A DNA stretch of 64,000 bases from Streptomyces ambofaciens ATCC 23877. Lineage in GTDB: Bacteria > Actinomycetota > Actinomycetes > Streptomycetales > Streptomycetaceae. The notes below the pieces were generated by a model. The model searched no databases and had not been told where the DNA came from. It saw nothing but the letters and a program-made list of their open reading frames with translations. How positions within the stretch are numbered: the stretch's first letter is position 1; each line of letters starts with the position of its first letter. The position numbers and the translations under genes are program-made. The DNA lies in contig NZ_CP012382.1 of the NCBI RefSeq assembly GCF_001267885.1, positions 6,745,001 to 6,809,000 of the forward strand, in the 5' to 3' direction. Below, piece by piece: positions 43,164-57,321 of this stretch.

Positions 43164-43925
43164 TCACGGCGCGACGAGTTCCCGCAGCACCTCGGCCCGG
43201 GCGCCGCCCCGCACCCGCGAGGTCCGCCACAGCCACAGCACGTCCCGCCCGAACGACCACACCAGCAGACCCAGCGCCAGCATCACCACCCCGGCGTTCA
43301 CCGGCCCCGGCAGCAGGTCCGCACCCCCGAGCAGCAGCAGCACGCCCTGCAGCGCGGCCACCGTCTTGCGGGCCGTGCTCGGCGGCAGCGGGGCCGTCAG
43401 CCACGGCCACACGCGGGCCGCGGCGACGAACACGTACCGCATGCCGCCGATCAGCAGCACCCAGGGACCCAGGTCCATCGCGACGTACACGCTGAGCACC
43501 AGGATCAGGAACGCGTCGACCTCCATGTCGAAGCGGGCGCCCAGCGGGGAGCAGGTGCCCGTGCGGCGGGCCACCCTGCCGTCGACACCGTCCAGGAGCA
43601 GGGCCACGGCCGTCAGACCGACGAGGAGCGAGACGGGCGGTGCGCTGCGGAAGGAGTCGGCGACCAGGGCCGTCACACCGCCGACCAGCGTGGCCCTGCC
43701 GAGGGTGACCCGGTTCGCCGGGCCGAACGACGGCAGCCGGGAGCGGTGCAGGGCCCGGGAGAGCACCGCCCAGGTCGCGAACGCGAAGGCGAGGCCGGTC
43801 AGCCAGCCCGCCGTGCCCATGCCGATCGCGGTACCGAGCAGCGCCAGGACCAGGATCTGCGCTCCCGCCCCCACCGCCGTCTCCTGCTGAGCGGGCCTCG
43901 CGTCGTACGTGTCGTTCAGGGCCAC
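43164..43925 (-). CDS. CDP-alcohol phosphatidyltransferase family protein
   Basis: 253 aa from GTG 43925 (GGAGGG seven bases upstream). The complete family motif is visible: LLDGVDGRVARRTGTCSPLGARFDMEVDAFLILVL gives DG-x2-AR-x8-G-x3-D-x3-D. About six to seven membrane segments surround it. These enzymes swap CMP on a CDP-alcohol for an alcohol acceptor such as inositol-phosphate or glycerol-phosphate, at the membrane. It is divergent from the dehydrogenase that begins the GTP-cyclohydrolase-linked cluster, sharing 109 bp of upstream sequence; co-regulation is plausible, and the acceptor is unknown. Confidence 0.9.
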   Translation of the reverse strand: MALNDTYDARPAQQETAVGAGAQILVLALLGTAIGMGTAGWLTGLAFAFATWAVLSRALHRSRLPSFGPANRVTLGRATLVGGVTALVADSFRSAPPVSLLVGLTAVALLLDGVDGRVARRTGTCSPLGARFDMEVDAFLILVLSVYVAMDLGPWVLLIGGMRYVFVAAARVWPWLTAPLPPSTARKTVAALQGVLLLLGGADLLPGPVNAGVVMLALGLLVWSFGRDVLWLWRTSRVRGGARAEVLRELVAP

Positions 43926-43943
43926 CGAACACCCTCCGGCCGA

Positions 43944-43972
43944 GTGACAGAGTCGATCAAGGCCGCTACCTT
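43944..43972 (+). promoter_or_regulatory. Promoter of the dehydrogenase gene
   Basis: GTGACA (43944-43949), 17-bp spacer, TACCTT (43967-43972): a good fit to the HrdB-type consensus, 62 bp before the start codon. Confidence 0.6.
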
Positions 43973-44034
43973 GTGCGCGGCCTGTGCATCCCTCGGTACG
44001 TGGGCGGCTTCCCGATCGTTCAGGAGGACATCCG

Positions 44035-45021
44035 ATGACCCGCACCGCACGTGCGTTCTGGCTCGACTCGCCCGGCCGGGGCGTGATCCGCGACGTGGAA
44101 CTGCCCGTCCGGGGGGCGGACGAGGTGCTCGTGCGGACGCTCTTCAGCGGTGTCAGCCGGGGTACGGAGACGCTCGTCTTCCGCGGCCGGGTGCCGGAGA
44201 ACCAGTACGCGGCCATGCGCGCGCCGTTCCAGGACGGCGACTTCCCGGGGCCGGTGAAGTACGGCTACCTCAACGTGGGGGAGGTGGAGGAGGGGCCGCG
44301 GGAGCTCGTCGGCCGCACCGTCTTCTGCCTGTACCCGCACCAGACCCGGTACGTCGTGCCGGCCGCCGCCGTCACCCCGGTGCCCCCGGCCGTCCCCGCC
44401 GGTCGGGCCGTGCTCGCCGGCACCGTCGAGACCGCCGTCAACGCCCTGTGGGACGCGGCGCCCCTGGTCGGTGACCGGATCGCCGTGGTCGGCGGTGGCA
44501 TGATCGGCTGTTCCGTGGCCGCGCTGCTGGCCCGTTTCCCCGGCGTCCGCGTCCAGTTGGTCGACGCCGACCCGGACCGGGCCGGCGTCGCCGAGGCGCT
44601 CGGTGTCGGCTTCGCCCGCCCCGCCGACGCCCACGGCGACCTCGACCTCGTCGTCCACGCCAGCGCGACCGAAGCGGGCCTGGCCCGGTCACTGGAACTG
44701 CTGCGGCCCGAGGGCACCGTCCTCGAGCTGAGCTGGTACGGCGACCGGCGGGTCGCCCTCCCGCTCGGCGAGGCCTTCCACTCCCGGCGTCTGACCCTGC
44801 GCAGCAGCCAGGTCGGCACCGTCTCCCCGGCACGCGCCGCCACCCGCGGCTACGCCGACCGCCTCGCCCTCGCCCTGGACCTGCTCGCCGACCCGGCGCT
44901 GGACGCACTGGTCACCGGTGAGTCCGCCTTCACCGAACTGCCCGACGTCCTGCCGGGGTTGGCCGCCGGCGACATCCCCGCCCTGTGCCACCGGATCCGG
45001 TACGGCGGGGACGGCGACTGA
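44035..45021 (+). CDS. Medium-chain dehydrogenase-like protein lacking the usual zinc ligands
   Basis: 328 aa from ATG 44035 with AGGAGG nine bases upstream. MDR fold: the N-terminal GroES-like region has FSGVSRGTETLVFRGRVPENQY, and the Rossmann motif IAVVGGGMIGCSVAALLARFPGVRVQLVDADPDR is typical. The catalytic-zinc Cys expected near residue 40 is replaced (SGVSRGTE) and there is no structural four-Cys lobe. It resembles BchC-type dehydrogenases. It probably oxidises or reduces an alcohol/keto group on the cluster's intermediate with NAD(P). It has its own promoter and ends 161 bp before the pterin-synthase-like gene. Confidence 0.83.
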   Translation: MTRTARAFWLDSPGRGVIRDVELPVRGADEVLVRTLFSGVSRGTETLVFRGRVPENQYAAMRAPFQDGDFPGPVKYGYLNVGEVEEGPRELVGRTVFCLYPHQTRYVVPAAAVTPVPPAVPAGRAVLAGTVETAVNALWDAAPLVGDRIAVVGGGMIGCSVAALLARFPGVRVQLVDADPDRAGVAEALGVGFARPADAHGDLDLVVHASATEAGLARSLELLRPEGTVLELSWYGDRRVALPLGEAFHSRRLTLRSSQVGTVSPARAATRGYADRLALALDLLADPALDALVTGESAFTELPDVLPGLAAGDIPALCHRIRYGGDGD

Positions 45022-45054: not shown

Positions 45055-46782
<1,728 letters not shown>

Positions 46783-46786
<4 letters not shown>

Positions 46787-48051
46787 GGAGGACCACGACG
46801 CCGGCCGCGGGCGCGATCCCGGCCCGGCCCGGCCCGCAGGACGCCGCCGAGGCCCGGGACGTCGTCCCCGGGCCGGTCCCGGCCGACAGCCCCGCCGGAC
46901 GGCCCGCCTCCCGGGCCGCCGGAGCGATCGTCGAGCCCTCCGCCGCCGGGCGCGCGGACGGACGGGCCGAGGACCACGCGGGCCACGCGGGCAGCGAACG
47001 TGCGGACCGCCCGGGGGGCGGGCGCGCCGACCGGCGCGGTGCCCCGGCCAGGAGCGGGCCCGCCGGCATTCCCGCGACCCGGTCCTCGGACCGTCCCGCC
47101 GAGCGGCTCGCCGACCGCCCCGGTCAGCCCGCCGCCGAGCGCGCCACCCTGCGCCTGCGCGAGACGGACGAACCGCTCGGGTCAGGTGGCCCCGAGGAGC
47201 TGCCGGAACACCCCGACGAGCCCCCGCGCTTCGCCCCCGAGTGGCTGCGGCTGCGGGAGCCCGCCGACGCCGCCGCGCGGGCGCGTGAACTGCTCGACCC
47301 GCTCCGCGTCCGCCTGGCCGACCTGCCGAGGCGGGCCGGCGGGCTGGTCGTGCACGACGTGGGCTGCGGCACCGGCTCGATGGGACGCTGGCTCGCCCCG
47401 CTGCTCGACGGCGCCCAGCACTGGGTGCTGCACGACCGCGACCCCTACCTCCTGCACTTCGCCGCCGTCGGCGCTCCGCGCTCGGCCGCCGACGGCAGCC
47501 GCGTCACGGTCGAGACGCGGCGCGGTGACCTCGCCCGCCTCACCCCGGACGCGCTGGCCGGCGCCGGGCTGGTGACGGCGTCCGCGCTGCTGGACGTGCT
47601 CACCGCCGAGGAGGTCGGCGCCCTCGCCGCCGCCTGCGCCGCGGTCGGTTGCCCCGCGCTGCTGACCCTCTCCGTCGCCGGGCGGGTCGAGCTGGCCCCC
47701 GCCCATCCCCTGGACGCGGAGATCACCGAGGCGTTCAACGACCACCAGCGGCGGACCGGCATGCTGGGCCCGGACGCCGTCACGGTGGCGGCCGAGGCCT
47801 TCGCGGCGCACGGTGCCACGGTGCGGGCGCACCCCAGCCACTGGCGGCTGGGCCCCGGCGAGTCCGCGCTCACCGCCCAGTGGCTGCGGGGCTGGGTGGG
47901 CGCGGCCGTCGAGCAGCGCCCCGAACTGGGGGAGCCGGCCGGCCGGTACCTGGACGAGCGCCTGGCCGCCTGCGCCGCCGGGGAGCTGCGCGTCACCGTG
48001 CACCACACCGACCTGCTGGCGCTGAGCCGGCCGACGGGCGGAGCCTCGTGA
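46783..48051 (+). CDS. SAM-dependent methyltransferase with long disordered N-terminus
   Basis: 422 aa from ATG 46783 (ATGA overlap). The first ~150 residues are low-complexity (Ala, Arg, Pro, Gly, Asp-rich) and probably unstructured. The methyltransferase domain starts near PEWLRLREPADAAARARELLDPL; SAM motif I is VVHDVGCGTGSMGRWLAPLL, followed by HWVLHDRDPYLLHFAA, RVTVETRRGDLARL and LVTASALLDVLTAEEV. It is a class I enzyme. The long tail is unusual and could be an artefact of a too-early start, but the overlap with the upstream stop supports it. Acceptor unknown. Confidence 0.85.
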
Positions 48052-49307
48052 GCGCACCGACGGTCCGGGTGCGGACGGGGGCCGCCCGGCCGGCGACGGC
48101 CCCCCGGGACACCGCCGCTTCCCACGACCCGATCGGCACCCCGCCCGGCCGGAGCCACGCGCTGCGCACCCGCCTGGGCACCCTCGCGGGCGTCGCCCTC
48201 CTCGTCGTCCTGCTGTGGCGCACCGGGACCGGAGTCCTCTGGGACGGGCTGCGCCGGGTGGACGGGACCGCGCTGGCGGCGGCGCTCGGCCTCGGGCTGG
48301 TCACCACCGTGCTCAGTGCCTGGCGCTGGGCCGTCGTGGCCCGGGGGCTGGGCATCCGGCTGCCCCTCGGGCCCGCCGTCGCCGACTACTACCGGGCCCT
48401 CTTCCTCAACGCCGCTCTCCCCGGCGGCGTCCTCGGCGACGTGCACCGCGCGGTACGGCACGGGCGGAGCGCCGGCGACCTGGGGAGGGGTGTGCGGGCC
48501 GTCGTCCTCGAACGGGCCGCCGGACAACTCGCGCTGCTCGGCGTCGGGGTCGCGGCGTTGCTCGTCCTGCCGTCGCCGGTACGGGACGAGGCCCGGCAGA
48601 TCGCGCCCCTCCTGGGGCCGGCCCTGCTCGGCGCGCTCGCCGTCGGGCTCGCCCTCCGCATGAACCGGGCACCCTCCCGCCGGGGGCGGGCCCTGCGGGC
48701 GACGCTCGGCGAGGCGCGTGCCGCGCTGCTGTCCCGGCGCGCCCTGCCGGGGATCGCGTTGTCGTCCGTCGCCGTCCTGGCCGGGCACCTCGCGATGTTC
48801 GTCCTCGCCGCCCGGGTGGCCGGCAGCGGCGCCTCCGTCGCCGTACTGACACCGCTGGCCGTGTTGGCGCTGCTCGCCATGGGCCTGCCCCTGAACGTCG
48901 CCGGCTGGGGGCCCCGGGAGGGCGTCACCGCCTGGGCGTTCGGAGCGGCCGGGCTGGGCGCCGACACCGGGCTGGGCGTGGCCGTGGTGTACGGGGTGCT
49001 GAGCTTCGTGGCGAGCCTGCCCGGTGTCGTCGTGCTCGTCGTCCGCCGGCACGCGGCGCCGCGCACCGGCCCCGGGTGGGCCGCCGGGGCTCCCGCGAAC
49101 GCCCCGGAGGGCGCCGTCGTACCGGGCGCGGTGCCGCACCCGGCGCCGGGCGGGCCCTACCCGTGCTCGCCCACCGCCCCGGGCCCGTCCGGTGCGGTCA
49201 GGATCGAGAAGTACGCCCCGAAGGAATCGGCGAGGCTCGCCAGCAGTTCCTTCCCCTTTTCCGCCGAACCGAGTGAAGGACGCCCGATGACACCGGAATC
49301 GGTATAG
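48048..49307 (+). CDS. Lysylphosphatidylglycerol-synthase-TM (UPF0104) family membrane protein
   Basis: 419 aa from GTG 48048 (overlaps previous stop). About eight membrane segments between residues 45 and 345, with family-typical LSAWRWAVVARGLGIRLPLGPAVADYYRALFLNAALPGGVLGDVHRAVRHG, VVLERAAGQLALL and LPLNVAGWGPREGVTAWAFGAAG. Relatives include MprF and AglD membrane parts, which flip or transfer groups on membrane lipids. The last ~50 codons overlap the 3' end of the converging creatininase gene by 151 bp; that tail is hydrophilic and probably dispensable. A role in exporting or flipping the cluster's product is inferred. Confidence 0.85.
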   Translation: MSAPTVRVRTGAARPATAPRDTAASHDPIGTPPGRSHALRTRLGTLAGVALLVVLLWRTGTGVLWDGLRRVDGTALAAALGLGLVTTVLSAWRWAVVARGLGIRLPLGPAVADYYRALFLNAALPGGVLGDVHRAVRHGRSAGDLGRGVRAVVLERAAGQLALLGVGVAALLVLPSPVRDEARQIAPLLGPALLGALAVGLALRMNRAPSRRGRALRATLGEARAALLSRRALPGIALSSVAVLAGHLAMFVLAARVAGSGASVAVLTPLAVLALLAMGLPLNVAGWGPREGVTAWAFGAAGLGADTGLGVAVVYGVLSFVASLPGVVVLVVRRHAAPRTGPGWAAGAPANAPEGAVVPGAVPHPAPGGPYPCSPTAPGPSGAVRIEKYAPKESARLASSSFPFSAEPSEGRPMTPESV

Positions 49308-49915
49308 GCGGACATTCCGAGGGAGAGCAGATGACGCCGGTCGTCCGCGACGAAATCGGCGGCCTCGAAACCAGGTCGGACGGATTCGGGATGCGTGTGC
49401 AGAAGAATGGAGGTCTCGATTTCCCCCGCGTGCATGTCGGTGAGCAGCGAGGTGGCCACACCCGCCCGCTCCCGCGCCGCCTCCCAGTCCTCCGCGGCCG
49501 GGAACAGCGCCATCCGCTCACCGCGTGCGGAGGACTCCTGAACGACGTTGCCCAGCACGTAGTTGCCGCCGTGCCCGTTGACCACCACCAGGGCGTCGAC
49601 GCCCGAGCGGCGCAACGAGTCCGCTATGTCCCGCACCACCGCGTGCAGGGTCACCGAGGAGACGCTGACGGTCCCCGGCCAGTCCGCGTGCTCGTGCGAG
49701 CAGCCGATCGTCACCGGCGGGAGCGGGTGCACCGGGTACGCGGCGGCGATCTCGCGGGCGATGGCGCAGGCGACGAGCGTGTCGGTCGCCAACGGCAGGT
49801 GCGGGCCGTGCTGCTCGTAACTCCCCACCGGCAGCACCGCGATCTGCCGGGACACCTCCAATCCCCGCCCGCGCACGTCCTCGGTCGTGTCCGTCGGCAC
49901 CAGTGAAACATCCAT
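49157..49915 (-). CDS. Creatininase-family amidohydrolase (candidate FAPy hydrolase)
   Basis: 252 aa from ATG 49915. Creatininase metal-site motifs: [24 protein letters not shown] (Glu, His, Asp), [22 protein letters not shown] (Asn, His) and [19 protein letters not shown] (His, Glu). Members include creatininase, MftE and the archaeal FAPy deformylase ArfB. The divergent neighbour 65 bp away encodes a GTP cyclohydrolase carrying the residue that makes it stop at the formylated intermediate FAPy, so this protein is the natural candidate to remove the formyl group. That assignment is inference. The 3' end overlaps the UPF0104-family gene. Confidence 0.87.
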
Positions 49916-49980
49916 TCCCGCACGGCCTTTCGTCTCGGTCGGCAAAACTGTTGAGCCATCTGTTGAGGAACGCGAGAATC

Positions 49981-50640
49981 ATGACAGAAAAAATTGGTGT
50001 ACTCGGCAAGAAAGCATCGCAGCGTACGGACGTGGAACGGGTCGTGGTGACACCGCTGCCCACCGGGTACGGAGAATTCCGGGCGTTCGGCTATTTCGAC
50101 CACGAGCGCGGGGACGAGCAGGTGGCCCTGGTCCACGGTGATCCGGGCGCCGAGGGCGTGCTCACCCGGCTGCACTCCGAGTGCCTGACGGGCGACGCCT
50201 TCGGGTCCCGGCACTGCGAGTGCGGCGACCAACTCGCCTCCGCGCTGGCGGCGGTGGCCGCCGCCGGCAGTGGTGTCGTCGTCTATCTGCGCGGTCACGA
50301 GGGGCGCGGCATCGGGCTGCTGGCCAAGCTGCGCGCGATGGCGCTGCAGGCGGAGGGCCTGGACACGGTGGAGGCGAACCTCGCCCTGGGCCTGCCGGTG
50401 GACGCCCGCGACTACGGGGTGGCCGCCCGCATCCTCGAGGACCTCGGGGTGCGCTCGGTGCGCCTGATGTCCAACAACCCGCTCAAGCGCGAGGCGTTGG
50501 TGCGGCACGGCATCCAGGTCACCGAACAGGTGCCGCTGCTGATACCGCCCTGCGAGAGCAACATCACCTACCTGCGCACCAAGCGGGAGCGCATGGACCA
50601 CGTCCTGCCCCACCTGGACGCGGTGGCGCACCTGTCCTGA
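49981..50640 (+). CDS. ribA: GTP cyclohydrolase II homologue with Met120 (FAPy-forming type)
   Basis: 219 aa from ATG 49981. RibA features: [21 protein letters not shown] supplies zinc ligands Cys68, Cys79, Cys81; [26 protein letters not shown] is the GTP-binding/catalytic loop; [24 protein letters not shown] and [13 protein letters not shown] follow. Canonical enzymes read RAYALQ; here the Tyr is Met120. Work on the three S. coelicolor paralogues showed that the one with Met120 (SCO6655) releases the formylated pyrimidine FAPy instead of completing deformylation, and that Met120Tyr restores the normal product. Hence this gene likely feeds the surrounding pathway, not riboflavin. No riboflavin genes lie nearby. 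Early codons are AT-rich. Confidence 0.93.
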
Positions 50641-50677: not shown

Positions 50678-51907
50678 TCAGTCCGTCACGGCCTCGTGCA
50701 CGAGGTGCTTGAGGTCCCGGAAGACCGAGTGCGAGGACCTGGGACGCACCTGGGTCATGAACTGCACCGTCAGGTCACGGCCCGGGTCGACCCAGAAGGT
50801 GGTGGTCGCCACCCCGCTCCAGCCGTACGTGCCGAGCCCGGCGGGCGCCTGCGTGCGGCTCGGGTCGATCACCACCGAGACGCCGAGGCCGAAGCCGACA
50901 CCGTCGTTGCCCGGCTCGTCGTGCGCGGGGCGGCTGCCGACGGCACGCAGGTCGGCGCCGCCGGGCAGGTGGTTGCGGGTCATGAGGTCCACCGTCGCGG
51001 GGGCGAGCAGGCGTACGCCGTCGAGTTCGCCCCGGCGCCGGAGCAGTTCGGTGAAGCGGTGCACGTCGTGCGCGGAGGAGACCAGGCCGCCGCTGCCCGA
51101 CAGGAACCGGGGCCTGCCCCGCACCGGCAGCCCGGGGACGGGGGCGATGCCGCCGTCGTCCGTCTCGCCGTAGAGCTCGGCCAGTCGGCCGGCCTGCTCG
51201 TCGGTGACGTGGAAGCCGGTGTCCGTCATGCCGAGCGGTCCGAGAACCCGTCCGGCGAGGAACACGTCGAGCGGCTGTCCGGACACCACCTCCACGAGCC
51301 GTCCCAGCACGTTGCTGGCCACCGAGTAGTTCCACTGCGTGCCCGGCTCGAACTGCAGGGGCAGACCCGCGTACAGGTCGACCGTCTCGGCCAGGTCCGC
51401 ACCGGGCCGCACCGACGACTCCAGGCCCGCCGCGCGGTAGAGCGCGTCGACCGGGTGGGCGTGGTAGAAGCCGAAGGTCAGCCCGGCGGTGTGGGTCATC
51501 AGATGCCGGACCAGGACCGGTCCGGCGGCCGGCCGGGTGACGACGTCGTCCGCGGACCCCTCCACGTACACCCGGGGCTCGGCGAAGGCCGGCAGGTACC
51601 GGGCCACGGGGTCGTCCAGGGACAGCCGGCCCTCCTCCACCAGCATCAGCGCGGCCACGGACGTCACCGGCTTGGTCATGGAGTAGATCCGCCAGAGGGT
51701 GTCGGCGGTGACGGGCAGGCCGGCCGCCACGTCCCGCCGGCCGTGCACGGTCAGGTGGGCCACACGTCCGCCACGGGCGAGGGCCACCAGGAACCCGGGC
51801 AGCCGCCCCTCGTCGACCTCCCGGGCGAAGTGCTCGTCGAGCCGGTCCAGCGCCCCGGGGTCCAGCCCGGCCGCGCCGGCGTCGACCTCCTGTCGCAGCG
51901 GTGCCAT
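50678..51907 (-). CDS. Serine hydrolase, class C beta-lactamase-like
   Basis: 409 aa from ATG 51907; AGGGAGG lies eight bases upstream, which favours it over ATG 51913. Beta-lactamase/DD-peptidase fold: SxxK in TLWRIYSMTKPVTSVAALMLVEEGRLSLDDPVARYLP, Tyr motif in FEPGTQWNYSVASNVLGRLVEVVSG, and GTYGWSGVATTTFWVDP near the C-terminus in place of the KTG box. No signal peptide, so it is probably cytoplasmic and an esterase (EstB-like) more than a penicillin-binding enzyme. It stands alone; the substrate is unknown. Confidence 0.87.
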   Translation of the reverse strand: MAPLRQEVDAGAAGLDPGALDRLDEHFAREVDEGRLPGFLVALARGGRVAHLTVHGRRDVAAGLPVTADTLWRIYSMTKPVTSVAALMLVEEGRLSLDDPVARYLPAFAEPRVYVEGSADDVVTRPAAGPVLVRHLMTHTAGLTFGFYHAHPVDALYRAAGLESSVRPGADLAETVDLYAGLPLQFEPGTQWNYSVASNVLGRLVEVVSGQPLDVFLAGRVLGPLGMTDTGFHVTDEQAGRLAELYGETDDGGIAPVPGLPVRGRPRFLSGSGGLVSSAHDVHRFTELLRRRGELDGVRLLAPATVDLMTRNHLPGGADLRAVGSRPAHDEPGNDGVGFGLGVSVVIDPSRTQAPAGLGTYGWSGVATTTFWVDPGRDLTVQFMTQVRPRSSHSVFRDLKHLVHEAVTD

Positions 51908-52150
51908 CCCCATCGCCTCCCTGGTCGTTCGTCGAGGTGCGTGCGGCCTACCCCGCGCGAGCGCCTTCAGACCTCGGACCGGCACTTTCCGCCGGTGCGC
52001 GCGCCGCGACGACACGGGCGCCGGCCGGGCGACAGAAGCACGCCCCCGACGAAACGGAGCGCCACCACGGCGAGGGGCGGCCCCGACGGCACCGAGCGCC
52101 ACCACGACGGCACGGGGCACGGCCCCGAGTCACCGAGCACCGCCACGACG
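51908..52150. other. Intergenic region with degenerate GC-rich repeats
   Basis: A GAGCGCCACCACG-type motif recurs near 52057, 52094 and 52135 (37-41 bp apart). No convincing ORF. The minus-strand serine hydrolase promoter should be here, but I cannot pick clear boxes. Confidence 0.4.
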
Positions 52151-54570: not shown

Positions 54571-55449
54571 GTGTCCAAGGACTCGTATCTCGTCGGGCTG
54601 ATCGGTTCCGGCATCGGCCCCTCGCTCAGCCCGGCCCTGCACGAGCGGGAGGCCGACCGGCAGGGCCTGCGCTACCTGTACCGGCTGATCGACATCGACG
54701 CCCTCGGTGTCCCGCCGGAGGCGGTGGGCGACCTGCTGCGCGCCGCCCGCGACCTGGGCTTCGACGGTCTGAACATCACCCACCCGTGCAAGCAGCTCGT
54801 CATCGGGCACCTGGACGCCCTCGCCCCCCAGGCGGAGGCGCTCGGCGCGGTCAACACCGTCGTCTTCGACGACGCCGGCCGGGCCACCGGTCACAACACC
54901 GACGTCACCGGTTTCGCCGCCTCCTTCGCCCGGGGGCTGCCCGACGCCCCGCTGGAGCGGGTCGTGCAGCTCGGGGCGGGCGGCGCGGGCGCGGCCGTCG
55001 CCCACGCCACGCTCACCCTGGGCGCCGCCCGGGTCACCGTCGTCGACGCGATGCCCGAGCGGGCCGCCGCCCTCGCCGCCGCACTGAACCGGCACTTCGG
55101 GGACGGCCGCGCCGCCCACGCCGCGCCGGACGCGCTCCCGGGGCTGCTGGCCACGGCCGACGGCATCGTGCACGCGACCCCCACCGGCATGGCCGCCCAC
55201 CCCGGGCTGCCGTTGCCCGCCGAACTGCTGCATCCCGCGCTGTGGGTCGCCGAGGTCGTCTACCGCCCGCTGGAGACCGAACTGCTGCGCACGGCCCGCG
55301 CGCTCGGCTGCGCCACCCTCGACGGCGGCGGCATGGCCGTCTTCCAGGCGGTGGACGCGTTCCGGCTGTTCACCGGGCGGGAACCCGACGCCGTGCGGAT
55401 GCTCGCCGACATCACCGACCTGGCGGGCGCCCTCGGGGCCCCGCAGTAG
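54571..55449 (+). CDS. aroE: Shikimate/quinate dehydrogenase (AroE family)
   Basis: 292 aa from GTG 54571 with AGGAGG six bases upstream. AroE features: LIGSGIGPSLSPALHEREA (SxS substrate motif), GFDGLNITHPCKQLVIGHLD (catalytic Lys in NITHPCKQ), ALGAVNTVVF, GHNTDVTGF (Asp), the NAD(P)-binding VVQLGAGGAGAAVAHAT, ATPTGM, and DGGGMAVFQAVDAFRLFTG at the end. After the Rossmann strand the text VTVVDAMPERA has an acidic residue, which fits NAD use as in catabolic QsuD-type enzymes. Context with a dehydroshikimate dehydratase and importer indicates hydroaromatic catabolism, not biosynthesis. Confidence 0.9.
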   Translation: MSKDSYLVGLIGSGIGPSLSPALHEREADRQGLRYLYRLIDIDALGVPPEAVGDLLRAARDLGFDGLNITHPCKQLVIGHLDALAPQAEALGAVNTVVFDDAGRATGHNTDVTGFAASFARGLPDAPLERVVQLGAGGAGAAVAHATLTLGAARVTVVDAMPERAAALAAALNRHFGDGRAAHAAPDALPGLLATADGIVHATPTGMAAHPGLPLPAELLHPALWVAEVVYRPLETELLRTARALGCATLDGGGMAVFQAVDAFRLFTGREPDAVRMLADITDLAGALGAPQ

Positions 55450-55464
55450 GAAAGAGGTAGCCAC

Positions 55465-57321
55465 GTGCGGACGTCCATCGCGACCGTCTCCCTCAGCGGA
55501 TCCCTCACCGAGAAGCTCACCGCCGCCTCCCTGGCCGGCTTCGACGGCGTGGAGATCTTCGAGAACGACCTGCTGGCCAGCCCCCTGACCCCGGAGGAGA
55601 TCCGGGCCCGCTGCGCCGACCTCGGCCTCACCATCGACCTCTACCAGCCCCTGCGGGACATCGAGGCGCTGCCCGAGGACGAGTTCGCCCGTGCGCTGCG
55701 CCGGGCCCGGCACAAGTTCGAGCTGATGCGCAGGCTCGGCGCGGACACCGTCCTGGTCTGCTCCAGCGTCTCCCCGTACGCGGTCGACGACGACGCCCTC
55801 GCCGCCGAGCAGCTGAGCCGGCTGGCCGGTCTGGCCGAGGAGCACGGCGTCCGCGTCGCCTACGAGGCGCTCGCCTGGGGACGGCACGTCAGTACCTACG
55901 ACCACGCCTGGCGCGTCGTCGAGGCGGCCGGGCACCCGGCGCTCGGCACCTGCCTGGACAGCTTCCACATCCTCTCGCGCGGCAGCGACCCGAAGGGCAT
56001 CGAGGACATCCCCGGGGAGAAGATCTTCTTCCTCCAGCTCGCCGACGCCCCGCTCCTCGCGATGGACGTGCTCCAGTGGAGCCGCCACTACCGCTGCTTC
56101 CCCGGTCAGGGCGGCTTCGACGTGGCGGGGCTGCTGCGGCACGTCCTGCGCGCCGGGTACCGCGGCCCGCTCTCGCTGGAGGTCTTCAACGACGTCTTCC
56201 GGCAGTCCGAGGCCGGTCCCACGGCCGTGGACGCCCGGCGCTCGCTGCTGACACTCCAGGAGACCGTCGGCCTCACCACGCCGCCCGCGCCCGCGCCGCC
56301 CACCGGGATCGCCTTCGCCGAACTGGTGACCCCGGACGCCGCACCGGTCGCGGCCGTGCTCGGCGCGCTGGGCTTCGCCCGGACCGCCCGGCACCGCGGG
56401 AAGCCCGTGGACCTGTGGCAGCGGGGGGAGGCCCGCGTCCTGGTCAACACGGGGCCGGCCGAACGCCGCGACGGCACCCGGCTGGCCGCCGTCGGCCTGG
56501 AGTCGCCCGATCCCGCCGGGGCCGCCCGCCGCGCCGAGGCCCTGCTGGCTCCGGTCCTGCCCCGCCGCCGCGCCCCCGGGGACGCCCCGCTGGAGGCCGT
56601 CGCGGCACCCGACGGCACGGAGCTCTTCTTCTGCGCCCCCCAAAGCCCCGAACCTCCCGAAGGCCCCGAAGGCTCCGAACTCCCCGGATCGCCCGACCGG
56701 CAGGCCGACTGGCGGGCCGACTTCGAGGACACCGGCACGGCCGCCGTGGACGCCGTGGACGGCGCGGCGGCCTGGCGCGTCGACCACCTCTCCCTCGCCC
56801 AGCCCTGGCACCAGTTCGACGAGGCGACCCTGTTCCACCGCGGCGTGCTCGGGCTGCGCCCGCAAGAGAGCGTCGACGTCGCCGACCCCTACGGCCTGCT
56901 GCGCTCCCGCGCCGTCACCACCGACGACGGCGCCGTCCGCATCGTGCTGACCGTGGGCGCCGCCCCCACCGACGACACCGCGCACGCCCAGCACATCGCC
57001 CTCGCCACCGACGACGTGGTCGGCGCGGCCCGCCGCTTCCGCGCCGCCGGCGGGCCGCTGCTGCCGATCCCCGCCAACTACTACGACGACCTCGCCGCCC
57101 GCTTCGAGTTCGCCGACGGCGAGCTGGAGACGTACCGGGAGCTGGGCATCCTCTACGACCGCGACGCGCACGGCACCTTCCGGCACTGCTACACGCACAC
57201 CGTCGGACGGGTCTTCTTCGAACTCGTCCAGCGGGACGGCGGCTACCGCGGCTACGGGGCGGCCAACGCGCCGGTCCGGCTGGCCGCGCAGCACGCGGTG
57301 CGCGGGTTCACTGGCGGCTGA
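55465..57321 (+). CDS. 3-dehydroshikimate dehydratase, TIM barrel fused to VOC/HPPD-like domains (QsuB/QuiC type)
   Basis: 618 aa from GTG 55465 (AAAGAGG seven bases upstream). N-terminal TIM barrel (1-270): IATVSLSGSLTEKLTAASLAGFDGVEIFENDLL, VRVAYEALAWGRHV, HPALGTCLDSFHILSRG, IFFLQLADAPLL, RGPLSLEVFNDVFRQ; the Glu, Asp, Gln and Glu are the metal ligands. The C-terminal half has two vicinal-oxygen-chelate units (from ~285 and ~440) with WRVDHLSLAQPW, HIALATDDVVGAARRF and a final GRVFFELVQRDGGYRGYGAAN similar to hydroxyphenylpyruvate dioxygenase. It turns 3-dehydroshikimate into protocatechuate. Its end overlaps the converging next gene by 14 bp. Confidence 0.9.
   Translation: MRTSIATVSLSGSLTEKLTAASLAGFDGVEIFENDLLASPLTPEEIRARCADLGLTIDLYQPLRDIEALPEDEFARALRRARHKFELMRRLGADTVLVCSSVSPYAVDDDALAAEQLSRLAGLAEEHGVRVAYEALAWGRHVSTYDHAWRVVEAAGHPALGTCLDSFHILSRGSDPKGIEDIPGEKIFFLQLADAPLLAMDVLQWSRHYRCFPGQGGFDVAGLLRHVLRAGYRGPLSLEVFNDVFRQSEAGPTAVDARRSLLTLQETVGLTTPPAPAPPTGIAFAELVTPDAAPVAAVLGALGFARTARHRGKPVDLWQRGEARVLVNTGPAERRDGTRLAAVGLESPDPAGAARRAEALLAPVLPRRRAPGDAPLEAVAAPDGTELFFCAPQSPEPPEGPEGSELPGSPDRQADWRADFEDTGTAAVDAVDGAAAWRVDHLSLAQPWHQFDEATLFHRGVLGLRPQESVDVADPYGLLRSRAVTTDDGAVRIVLTVGAAPTDDTAHAQHIALATDDVVGAARRFRAAGGPLLPIPANYYDDLAARFEFADGELETYRELGILYDRDAHGTFRHCYTHTVGRVFFELVQRDGGYRGYGAANAPVRLAAQHAVRGFTGG

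Follow-up and report, generated by a model that had tools for sequence, protein, structure and literature searches.

A tyrosine-less GTP cyclohydrolase II and a creatininase-family protein as a likely split enzyme in a conserved Streptomyces gene cluster

We analyzed a window of 64,000 nucleotides from the 8.39 Mb genome of Streptomyces ambofaciens ATCC 23877 (contig NZ_CP012382.1, positions 6745001-6809000), with attention to two divergent genes. The forward-strand gene encodes a GTP cyclohydrolase II (GCHII) of 219 amino acids (49981-50640; ATG at 49981, stop at 50640), and the reverse-strand gene a creatininase-family protein, hereafter CRE (49157-49915; ATG at 49915). An alternative TTG start of CRE at 49945 is possible, but the alignment of relatives favors the ATG. 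The two ATG codons are separated by 65 bp (49916-49980), and the pair is part of an eight-gene conserved cluster of the SCO6650-SCO6655 type. An earlier note, made from the sequence alone, had described a methionine at GCHII residue 120 and a divergent creatininase-family gene 65 bp away. It proposed a two-step route in which GTP is converted to 2-amino-5-formylamino-6-ribosylamino-pyrimidinone 5'-phosphate (FAPy, also called AFRPP) and then deformylated, feeding a pathway other than riboflavin, and it named co-occurrence of Met120 with the creatininase gene as a check. The coordinates of both open reading frames (ORFs) and a PF02633 score of 219.6 bits for CRE bear out the described arrangement.

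The window GCHII scores above both RibA-family cut-offs (PF00925, 217.6 against 23.3 bits; TIGR00505, 216.1 against 205.85 bits). It lacks the tyrosine of the conserved motif RAYxLQ, a residue linked to the deformylation step, and reads KLRAMALQ instead, with the methionine exactly at residue 120. Among 140 cluster GCHIIs, residue 120 is Met in 96, His in 30, Leu in nine, Gln in four, and Asn in one, and never Tyr; this count, like the matching one for CRE, includes at least three genomes twice (L076/L092, L077/L106, and L079/L157) and leaves out one GCHII and one CRE that were located but fell under the score cut. Residue 120 is unread in L258 and is Leu in L261, which lies outside the count. 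A reading based on Met120 only was therefore rejected. A second replacement, Asp80 to Glu (codon 50218-50220, between the second and third zinc cysteines), is found in 140 of 140 sequences. Cys68, Cys79, Cys81, Asp141, and Arg143 are likewise invariant; from the E. coli enzyme we take the three cysteines to be zinc ligands and Asp141 and Arg143 to be catalytic. Compared with canonical GCHII or RibBA, the cluster enzyme keeps the fold family, the zinc site, and the catalytic residues, whereas Tyr120 and Asp80 are both replaced. As judged from these alignments, the constant feature is the loss of Tyr plus the fixed change of Asp80 to Glu, and "Met120" is too narrow a signature; the observation made in the earlier note was right and is more general than stated.

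All 59 other GCHIIs that were read (three sets of 15, 26, and 18) have Tyr at position 120, and no CRE match was found beside any of their loci in the roughly 1.5 kb covered on each side. When 67 cluster sequences were compared with 41 non-cluster GCHIIs, 38 of the 55 columns invariant in the latter were also invariant in the former. Position 120 had the highest entropy of the 55, and positions 120 and 80 were the only two at which the cluster GCHIIs never show the non-cluster residue. In a tree of 107 rows with residue 120 masked, one branch sets the cluster GCHIIs apart from the others (SH-aLRT 86, below the star threshold of 95), and residue 120 changes state eight times across the whole tree. 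Because the cluster enzymes form one side of a branch, a single loss of Tyr suffices on this topology, with position 120 drifting afterwards; such drift would be expected of an enzyme released from the function that Tyr serves. The other GCHII of the window genome is a RibBA (DHBP synthase and GCHII domains) with Tyr at 120. Nine Streptomyces genomes have three GCHII paralogues, of which the RibBA type and a third type carry Tyr (nine of nine each) and the cluster type carries Met (nine of nine), and CRE adjoins the cluster type only. The third, Tyr-type group (KLDAYALQ) is shared by these nine genomes and four from the second actinobacterial family described below (L347-L355 and L280-L287).

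CRE is a member of the creatininase superfamily, its PF02633 score standing against a cut-off of 31.3 bits. An AlphaFold model (mean pLDDT 81.4) gave 26 PDB fold matches at E <= 0.001, all of them creatininases or (putative) creatinine amidohydrolases, and all 140 cluster CREs read keep seven metal-ligand-like residues (E34, H36, D45, H115, H162, E165, and E167) unchanged. CRE scores 137.4 bits with the MftE profile TIGR03964 (cut-off 172; an annotated MftE scores 314.8) and 97.5 bits with the creatininase profile TIGR04448 (cut-off 235), and it lies under the cut-off of the IolN profile. For comparison we used the Sinorhizobium meliloti orthologue of BrbF, identified by its MarR and GTP-binding-protein gene neighbors. 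CRE and this orthologue are 34% identical, and the order in which the NCBIfam profiles score is shared by both, with every score under its cut-off; profile scores alone therefore do not discriminate. In alignment A4, CRE is 27% identical to creatininase. In the CRE tree, whose deep branches are long and unreliable, a single branch (SH-aLRT 96) separates the cluster CREs from the rest; they fall within a larger group of CREs, some of them plasmid-borne, that are encoded behind a conserved gene showing at best a weak helix-turn-helix (HTH) match. The topology suggests that CRE was probably recruited once from this group.

Co-occurrence of CREATININASE with the cluster GCHII was scored in 296 genomes of the class, where the cut-offs applied gave matches to GCHII in 277 and to CRE in 137. 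The 28 Streptomyces in this sample, the window genome included, comprise 16 with both a cluster-type GCHII and a close CRE, 12 with neither, and none with one alone (the 12 were called by score; residue 120 was read in four of them and is Tyr in each). All 16 pairs are adjacent, divergent, and of the Met120 type. A scan of named genomes by alignment to the PTPS-like protein of the cluster (see below) matched at least 597 stretches, 594 of which were confirmed. Among the best 80, which were kept and are all from Streptomyces, the same 74 loci hold GCHII and CRE, with Met120 in 74 of 74. The other six hold neither gene; five of these are cut by a contig end, and one (L118, Streptomyces sp. NBC_01549) is a second PTPS-like gene standing alone, with no matches to other cluster genes within 10 kb.

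In a second actinobacterial family (our code f17), the PTPS marker was found in 73 of 250 genomes, and all 73 loci (8 + 65) were read. Apart from six contig-cut loci (L203, L208, L211, L229, L250, and L259), the 67 settled clusters comprise 51 with both genes and 16 with neither; none has one alone. Many of them place GCHII at the opposite end of the cluster from CRE, and in L224 and L249 whole-genome searches located the partner slightly outside the stretch initially read. Residue 120 in the 51 GCHIIs read from this family is His (30), Leu (nine), Met (seven), Gln (four), or Asn (one), and Tyr in none. Whole-genome searches of the 16 pair-less genomes detected neither a GCHII lacking Tyr120 nor a CRE of the cluster type; two of these genomes hold a non-cluster CRE. 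The 24 GCHIIs located in these genomes all have Tyr. All six core genes are kept in 15 of the 16 pair-less clusters, and the remaining one, L236, is without a glycosyltransferase match. As to a common replacement gene, non-core gene families occur in at most five of the 16, mostly within one genus, a weak negative, since the simple ORF caller recovered core families in 6-14 of the 16.

The distribution of the pair was also placed on a tree of the cluster backbone (dehydrogenase, PTPS-like, and methyltransferase genes; 87 rows, L222 left out), with GCHII and CRE given one joint label since their presence coincides. Presence changes eight times, at least six of them on well-supported branches, and always jointly. 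Fisher's test of co-presence, which ignores relatedness, gives p = 9e-16. We conclude that GCHII and CRE are inherited and lost together; the co-occurrence on which the earlier note had staked its proposal holds in two families of actinobacteria, and the pair was repeatedly lost or gained as a unit. A chance neighborhood of the two genes was rejected on the strength of their adjacency or co-presence in the class sample, the named loci, and the second family, together with the Tyr-type loci that lack CRE.

The window GCHII is of the SCO6655 type, having both Met120 and an SCO6650-type neighborhood. Spoonamore et al. reportedly found in 2006 that SCO6655 of Streptomyces coelicolor stops at FAPy owing to Met120; to our knowledge, that work named no deformylating partner. 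By gene numbering SCO6655 belongs to the same cluster, and it is said to share Met120 with the window GCHII, whereas most second-family relatives have His, Leu, Gln, or Asn. Counting from the SCO6650 orthologue through the glycosyltransferase, methyltransferase, flippase-like, CRE, and GCHII genes reaches the number SCO6655, and CRE should therefore be SCO6654, by gene count and not by lookup. Archaea divide the conversion of GTP to FAPy and then to 2,5-diamino-6-ribosylamino-pyrimidinone 5'-phosphate (DARPP) between two enzymes likewise, ArfA and ArfB, of which ArfA (GCH III) is unrelated to GCHII.

Bacterial FAPy deformylation by the creatininase fold is already known. According to the passages available from PMC9478397 (2022), BrbF (SMc02977) of S. 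meliloti is a creatininase-family enzyme that deformylates AFRPP for riboflavin, and its GTP-opening partner is still missing; the main text mentions neither Streptomyces nor SCO6655. The passages available from a 2026 review (PMC13028884) repeat this account and add no GCHII partner. BrbF shares with CRE the fold family and the reaction proposed here. It serves riboflavin, however, and its gene is flanked by those of a MarR protein and a GTP-binding protein (CobW in PMC9478397), a neighborhood different from that of CRE. Within the literature searched, the pairing with a Tyr-less GCHII is new. SCO6655 is listed as an S. coelicolor GCHII in Table 2 of PMC2853524, where its expression is anticorrelated with the predicted riboflavin flux (r = -0.61); that table, which also includes another GCHII, SCO2687, is described as consisting mostly of genes upregulated in stationary phase. 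This pattern fits specialized metabolism. Together with the genome's own RibBA, it agrees with the earlier note's placement of the pair outside riboflavin synthesis. SCO6652 is listed in a differentiation transcriptome table in the passages of PMC3610822, the one paper in the open-licence PMC literature searched that names any of SCO6649 and SCO6651-SCO6654. The same literature yielded neither a mention of SCO6650 nor a published pathway for the cluster, which is no proof of absence. The idea that the missing partner of BrbF ("BrbG") is a Tyr-less GCHII gained no support: in each of three rhizobial records a single PF00925 domain was found, without the zinc cysteines; the search covered these records and not the remainder of the genomes. 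These GCHII-like domains (L326, L327, and L328; two Sinorhizobium and one Shinella) are unlikely to be ordinary GCHIIs.

The other genes of the cluster lie upstream of the pair. A CDP-alcohol phosphatidyltransferase-like membrane protein (43164-44216, reverse strand; PF01066, 48.3 bits; 79 of 80 named loci) has its true start probably further in. It is followed on the forward strand by a BchC-like, zinc-dehydrogenase-type oxidoreductase (44038-45021; TIGR01202, 43.5 bits, under cut-off), found in 79 of 80 named Streptomyces loci and 65 of 65 second-family loci, and by the PTPS-like T-fold protein (45162-45581; PF01242, 82.1 bits). Next come a GT4-type glycosyltransferase (45578-46786; PF00534, 98.8 bits; 79 of 80), an S-adenosylmethionine methyltransferase-like protein (46783-48051; PF13649, 25.7 bits, slightly under the Pfam cut-off of 27; 77 of 80), and an LPG_synthase_TM/flippase-like membrane protein (48048-49307, start approximate; PF03706, 108.2 bits; 75 of 80). 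The PTPS-like protein is the orthologue of SCO6650 (PDB 3d7j, deposited as an uncharacterized protein; E = 6e-81), from which it differs at nine of 135 aligned residues, with no relevant difference. The zinc motif HGH of PTPS is replaced by HGA in 168 of 168 loci read, no Cys was found in the motif region (15 aligned rows), and the protein scores under the cut-offs of TIGR00039 and TIGR03367, outside both PTPS and QueD. GTP cyclohydrolase I (GCH I) is present in the window genome. The presence of glycosyltransferase, methyltransferase, and flippase-like genes hints at a product that is decorated, exported, or linked to a membrane.

Taken together, these data make it likely that the cluster GCHII and CRE jointly carry out the whole reaction of canonical GCHII and probably act as one split enzyme. 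The Tyr-less GCHII would open the imidazole ring of GTP, release pyrophosphate, and halt at FAPy. CRE, as a metalloenzyme, would then strip the formyl group to give DARPP, which would enter the remaining, non-riboflavin pathway of the cluster (PTPS-like T-fold protein, dehydrogenase, GT4, methyltransferase, and flippase-like protein), whose end product is probably a glycosylated pyrimidine or pteridine. We infer FAPy as the GCHII product by analogy with the reported behavior of SCO6655, and with it FAPy as the CRE substrate and DARPP as the entry compound. Joint loss with survival of the core would be expected of a pair equivalent to a single canonical GCHII activity, which RibBA can cover, and the all-Tyr GCHIIs of the pair-less genomes fit, because a canonical GCHII could supply the same product. 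A single origin of each enzyme, which both trees allow, and the deformylation of this compound by the CRE relative BrbF point the same way. The two-step route of the earlier note is in this respect well supported by comparative genomics, and it stands in part; the action of CRE on FAPy is a prediction.

Several points weigh against a split enzyme acting at FAPy. Joint loss leaves the order of steps unfixed, and the substrate of CRE could be a formylated intermediate further along the pathway; the independent-pairs test (six of six, p = 0.03) used the one joint label and adds only coincidence across separate branches; and the pair-less set of 16 includes several draft genomes. Membership of the creatininase family does not by itself imply FAPy deformylation, because in alignment A4 CRE shares more identity with MftE (41%) than with BrbF (35%) and because the more distant BrbF homologues Oant_3869 and Metdi4691 failed to complement a brbF mutant (passages of PMC9478397). 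CRE is far under the ArfB cut-off (NF033501, 37.3 against 180 bits), though so is the BrbF orthologue (30.7), and since that orthologue ranks the same profiles likewise, the missed cut-off is no argument against FAPy deformylation. Nine of 17 second-tier regions hold close CRE relatives (52%-64% identical) with no GCHII nearby, mostly behind the conserved weak-HTH gene; by this comparison the fold has another use. Finally, on a linear plasmid of S. coelicoflavus (L314:9833-10845) a CRE stands beside only a 36-residue stump of GCHII.

The formyl group might instead be kept for at least one step, with the cluster working on FAPy (for example, with the PTPS-like protein catalyzing an Amadori rearrangement) and CRE deformylating a later intermediate. 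Joint presence and loss would be equally expected if CRE acted on any formylated descendant of FAPy, and a PTPS-like protein without the PTPS motif leaves the choice of substrate wide. A core in need of FAPy should, however, fail in the 16 pair-less genomes, where it persists and only Tyr-type GCHII, yielding the deformylated product, was found; we regard late deformylation as unlikely. Nor do we give much weight to the pair making a side building block while the core starts from dihydroneopterin triphosphate, so that DARPP would not be its substrate: the presence of GCH I and the ability of the core to persist without the pair would allow this, yet the HGH motif and the catalytic Cys that mark ordinary PTPS are absent from the PTPS-like protein. 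It seems very improbable that CRE acts as an MftE-like peptidase or as a genuine creatininase, unrelated to FAPy and an incidental or regulatory neighbor. Its best NCBIfam profiles are indeed MftE and creatininase (both under cut-off), and relatives without GCHII exist, but BrbF, a proven FAPy deformylase, ranks the profiles identically, and co-presence with GCHII is strict in two families despite altered gene order. A mycofactocin role was rejected: no match in the genome exceeded the TIGR03962 cut-off for the radical-SAM maturase MftC (best 39.7 against 265). Least credible of all is decay of the cluster GCHII into an inactive paralogue; residue 120 does drift over five amino acids, as decay would have it, whereas the zinc cysteines, Asp141, Arg143, and most of the columns invariant outside the cluster have stayed fixed.

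If the split-enzyme reading is correct, FAPy, the reported product of SCO6655, gains a consumer, and bacteria have their own version of the ArfA/ArfB split of archaea, begun by a different enzyme. Residues 120 and 80 would be a signature for such GCHIIs, which currently carry riboflavin annotations (as SCO6655 does in PMC2853524), and a conserved uncharacterized cluster of many Streptomyces would become open to direct biochemistry. More tentatively, the cluster may encode a GCH-I-independent pteridine pathway, a doubtful but possible extension. GCHII and CRE would supply DARPP to the zinc-free SCO6650-type protein, which would carry out the Amadori rearrangement and ring closure that GCH I performs in the latter half of its reaction, and the later genes would make a methylated, glycosylated, exported or membrane-linked metabolite. 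In that case, splitting the reaction at FAPy would keep the stream away from the riboflavin enzymes, and the metabolite would be widespread in Streptomyces and another actinobacterial family.

Further observations concern the relatives of CRE and the surroundings of the cluster. Creatininases 51%-64% identical to the window CRE lie directly behind the conserved gene in L055, L057-L060, L068, L069, L288, L312, and L313, with weaker cases in L063, L066, and L289; the CRE of L069 is in two pieces. The conserved gene ahead of these non-cluster creatininases has a weak HTH_31 match in L068 only and is annotated on pTC1 as "putative Sporulation-associated protein." Some of these pairs lie on plasmids of Paenarthrobacter and Mycobacterium avium, and the two genes make up a separate, possibly mobile, regulator-creatininase pair. 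Four of the plasmid-borne CRE relatives were read: L312 and L313, with the helix-turn-helix-type gene, L311, without GCHII, and L314, a decayed fragment; L314 also has a flippase stump and resembles a decayed piece of the cluster. Further matches (H44-H47 and H49) are 53%-61% identical. In the second family, the stretch L062:5440-8043 carries an EmrB-type MFS transporter, suggesting product export, and a Methyltransf_19 protein between the glycosyltransferase and methyltransferase genes; 12 second-family loci carry the ORF family that includes the latter protein. The 3' end of the flippase-like ORF overlaps that of the convergent CRE antisense (49157-49307), as it does in L070, L071, and L079. 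A beta-lactamase-fold serine hydrolase (50678-52120) adjoins GCHII; it has matches in 68 of the 80 named loci from Streptomyces but in only two of 65 second-family loci. Further along, the region 54571-57321 holds a shikimate/quinate dehydrogenase-type gene, assigned by profile, followed by a large ORF that may be a fused 3-dehydroshikimate dehydratase.

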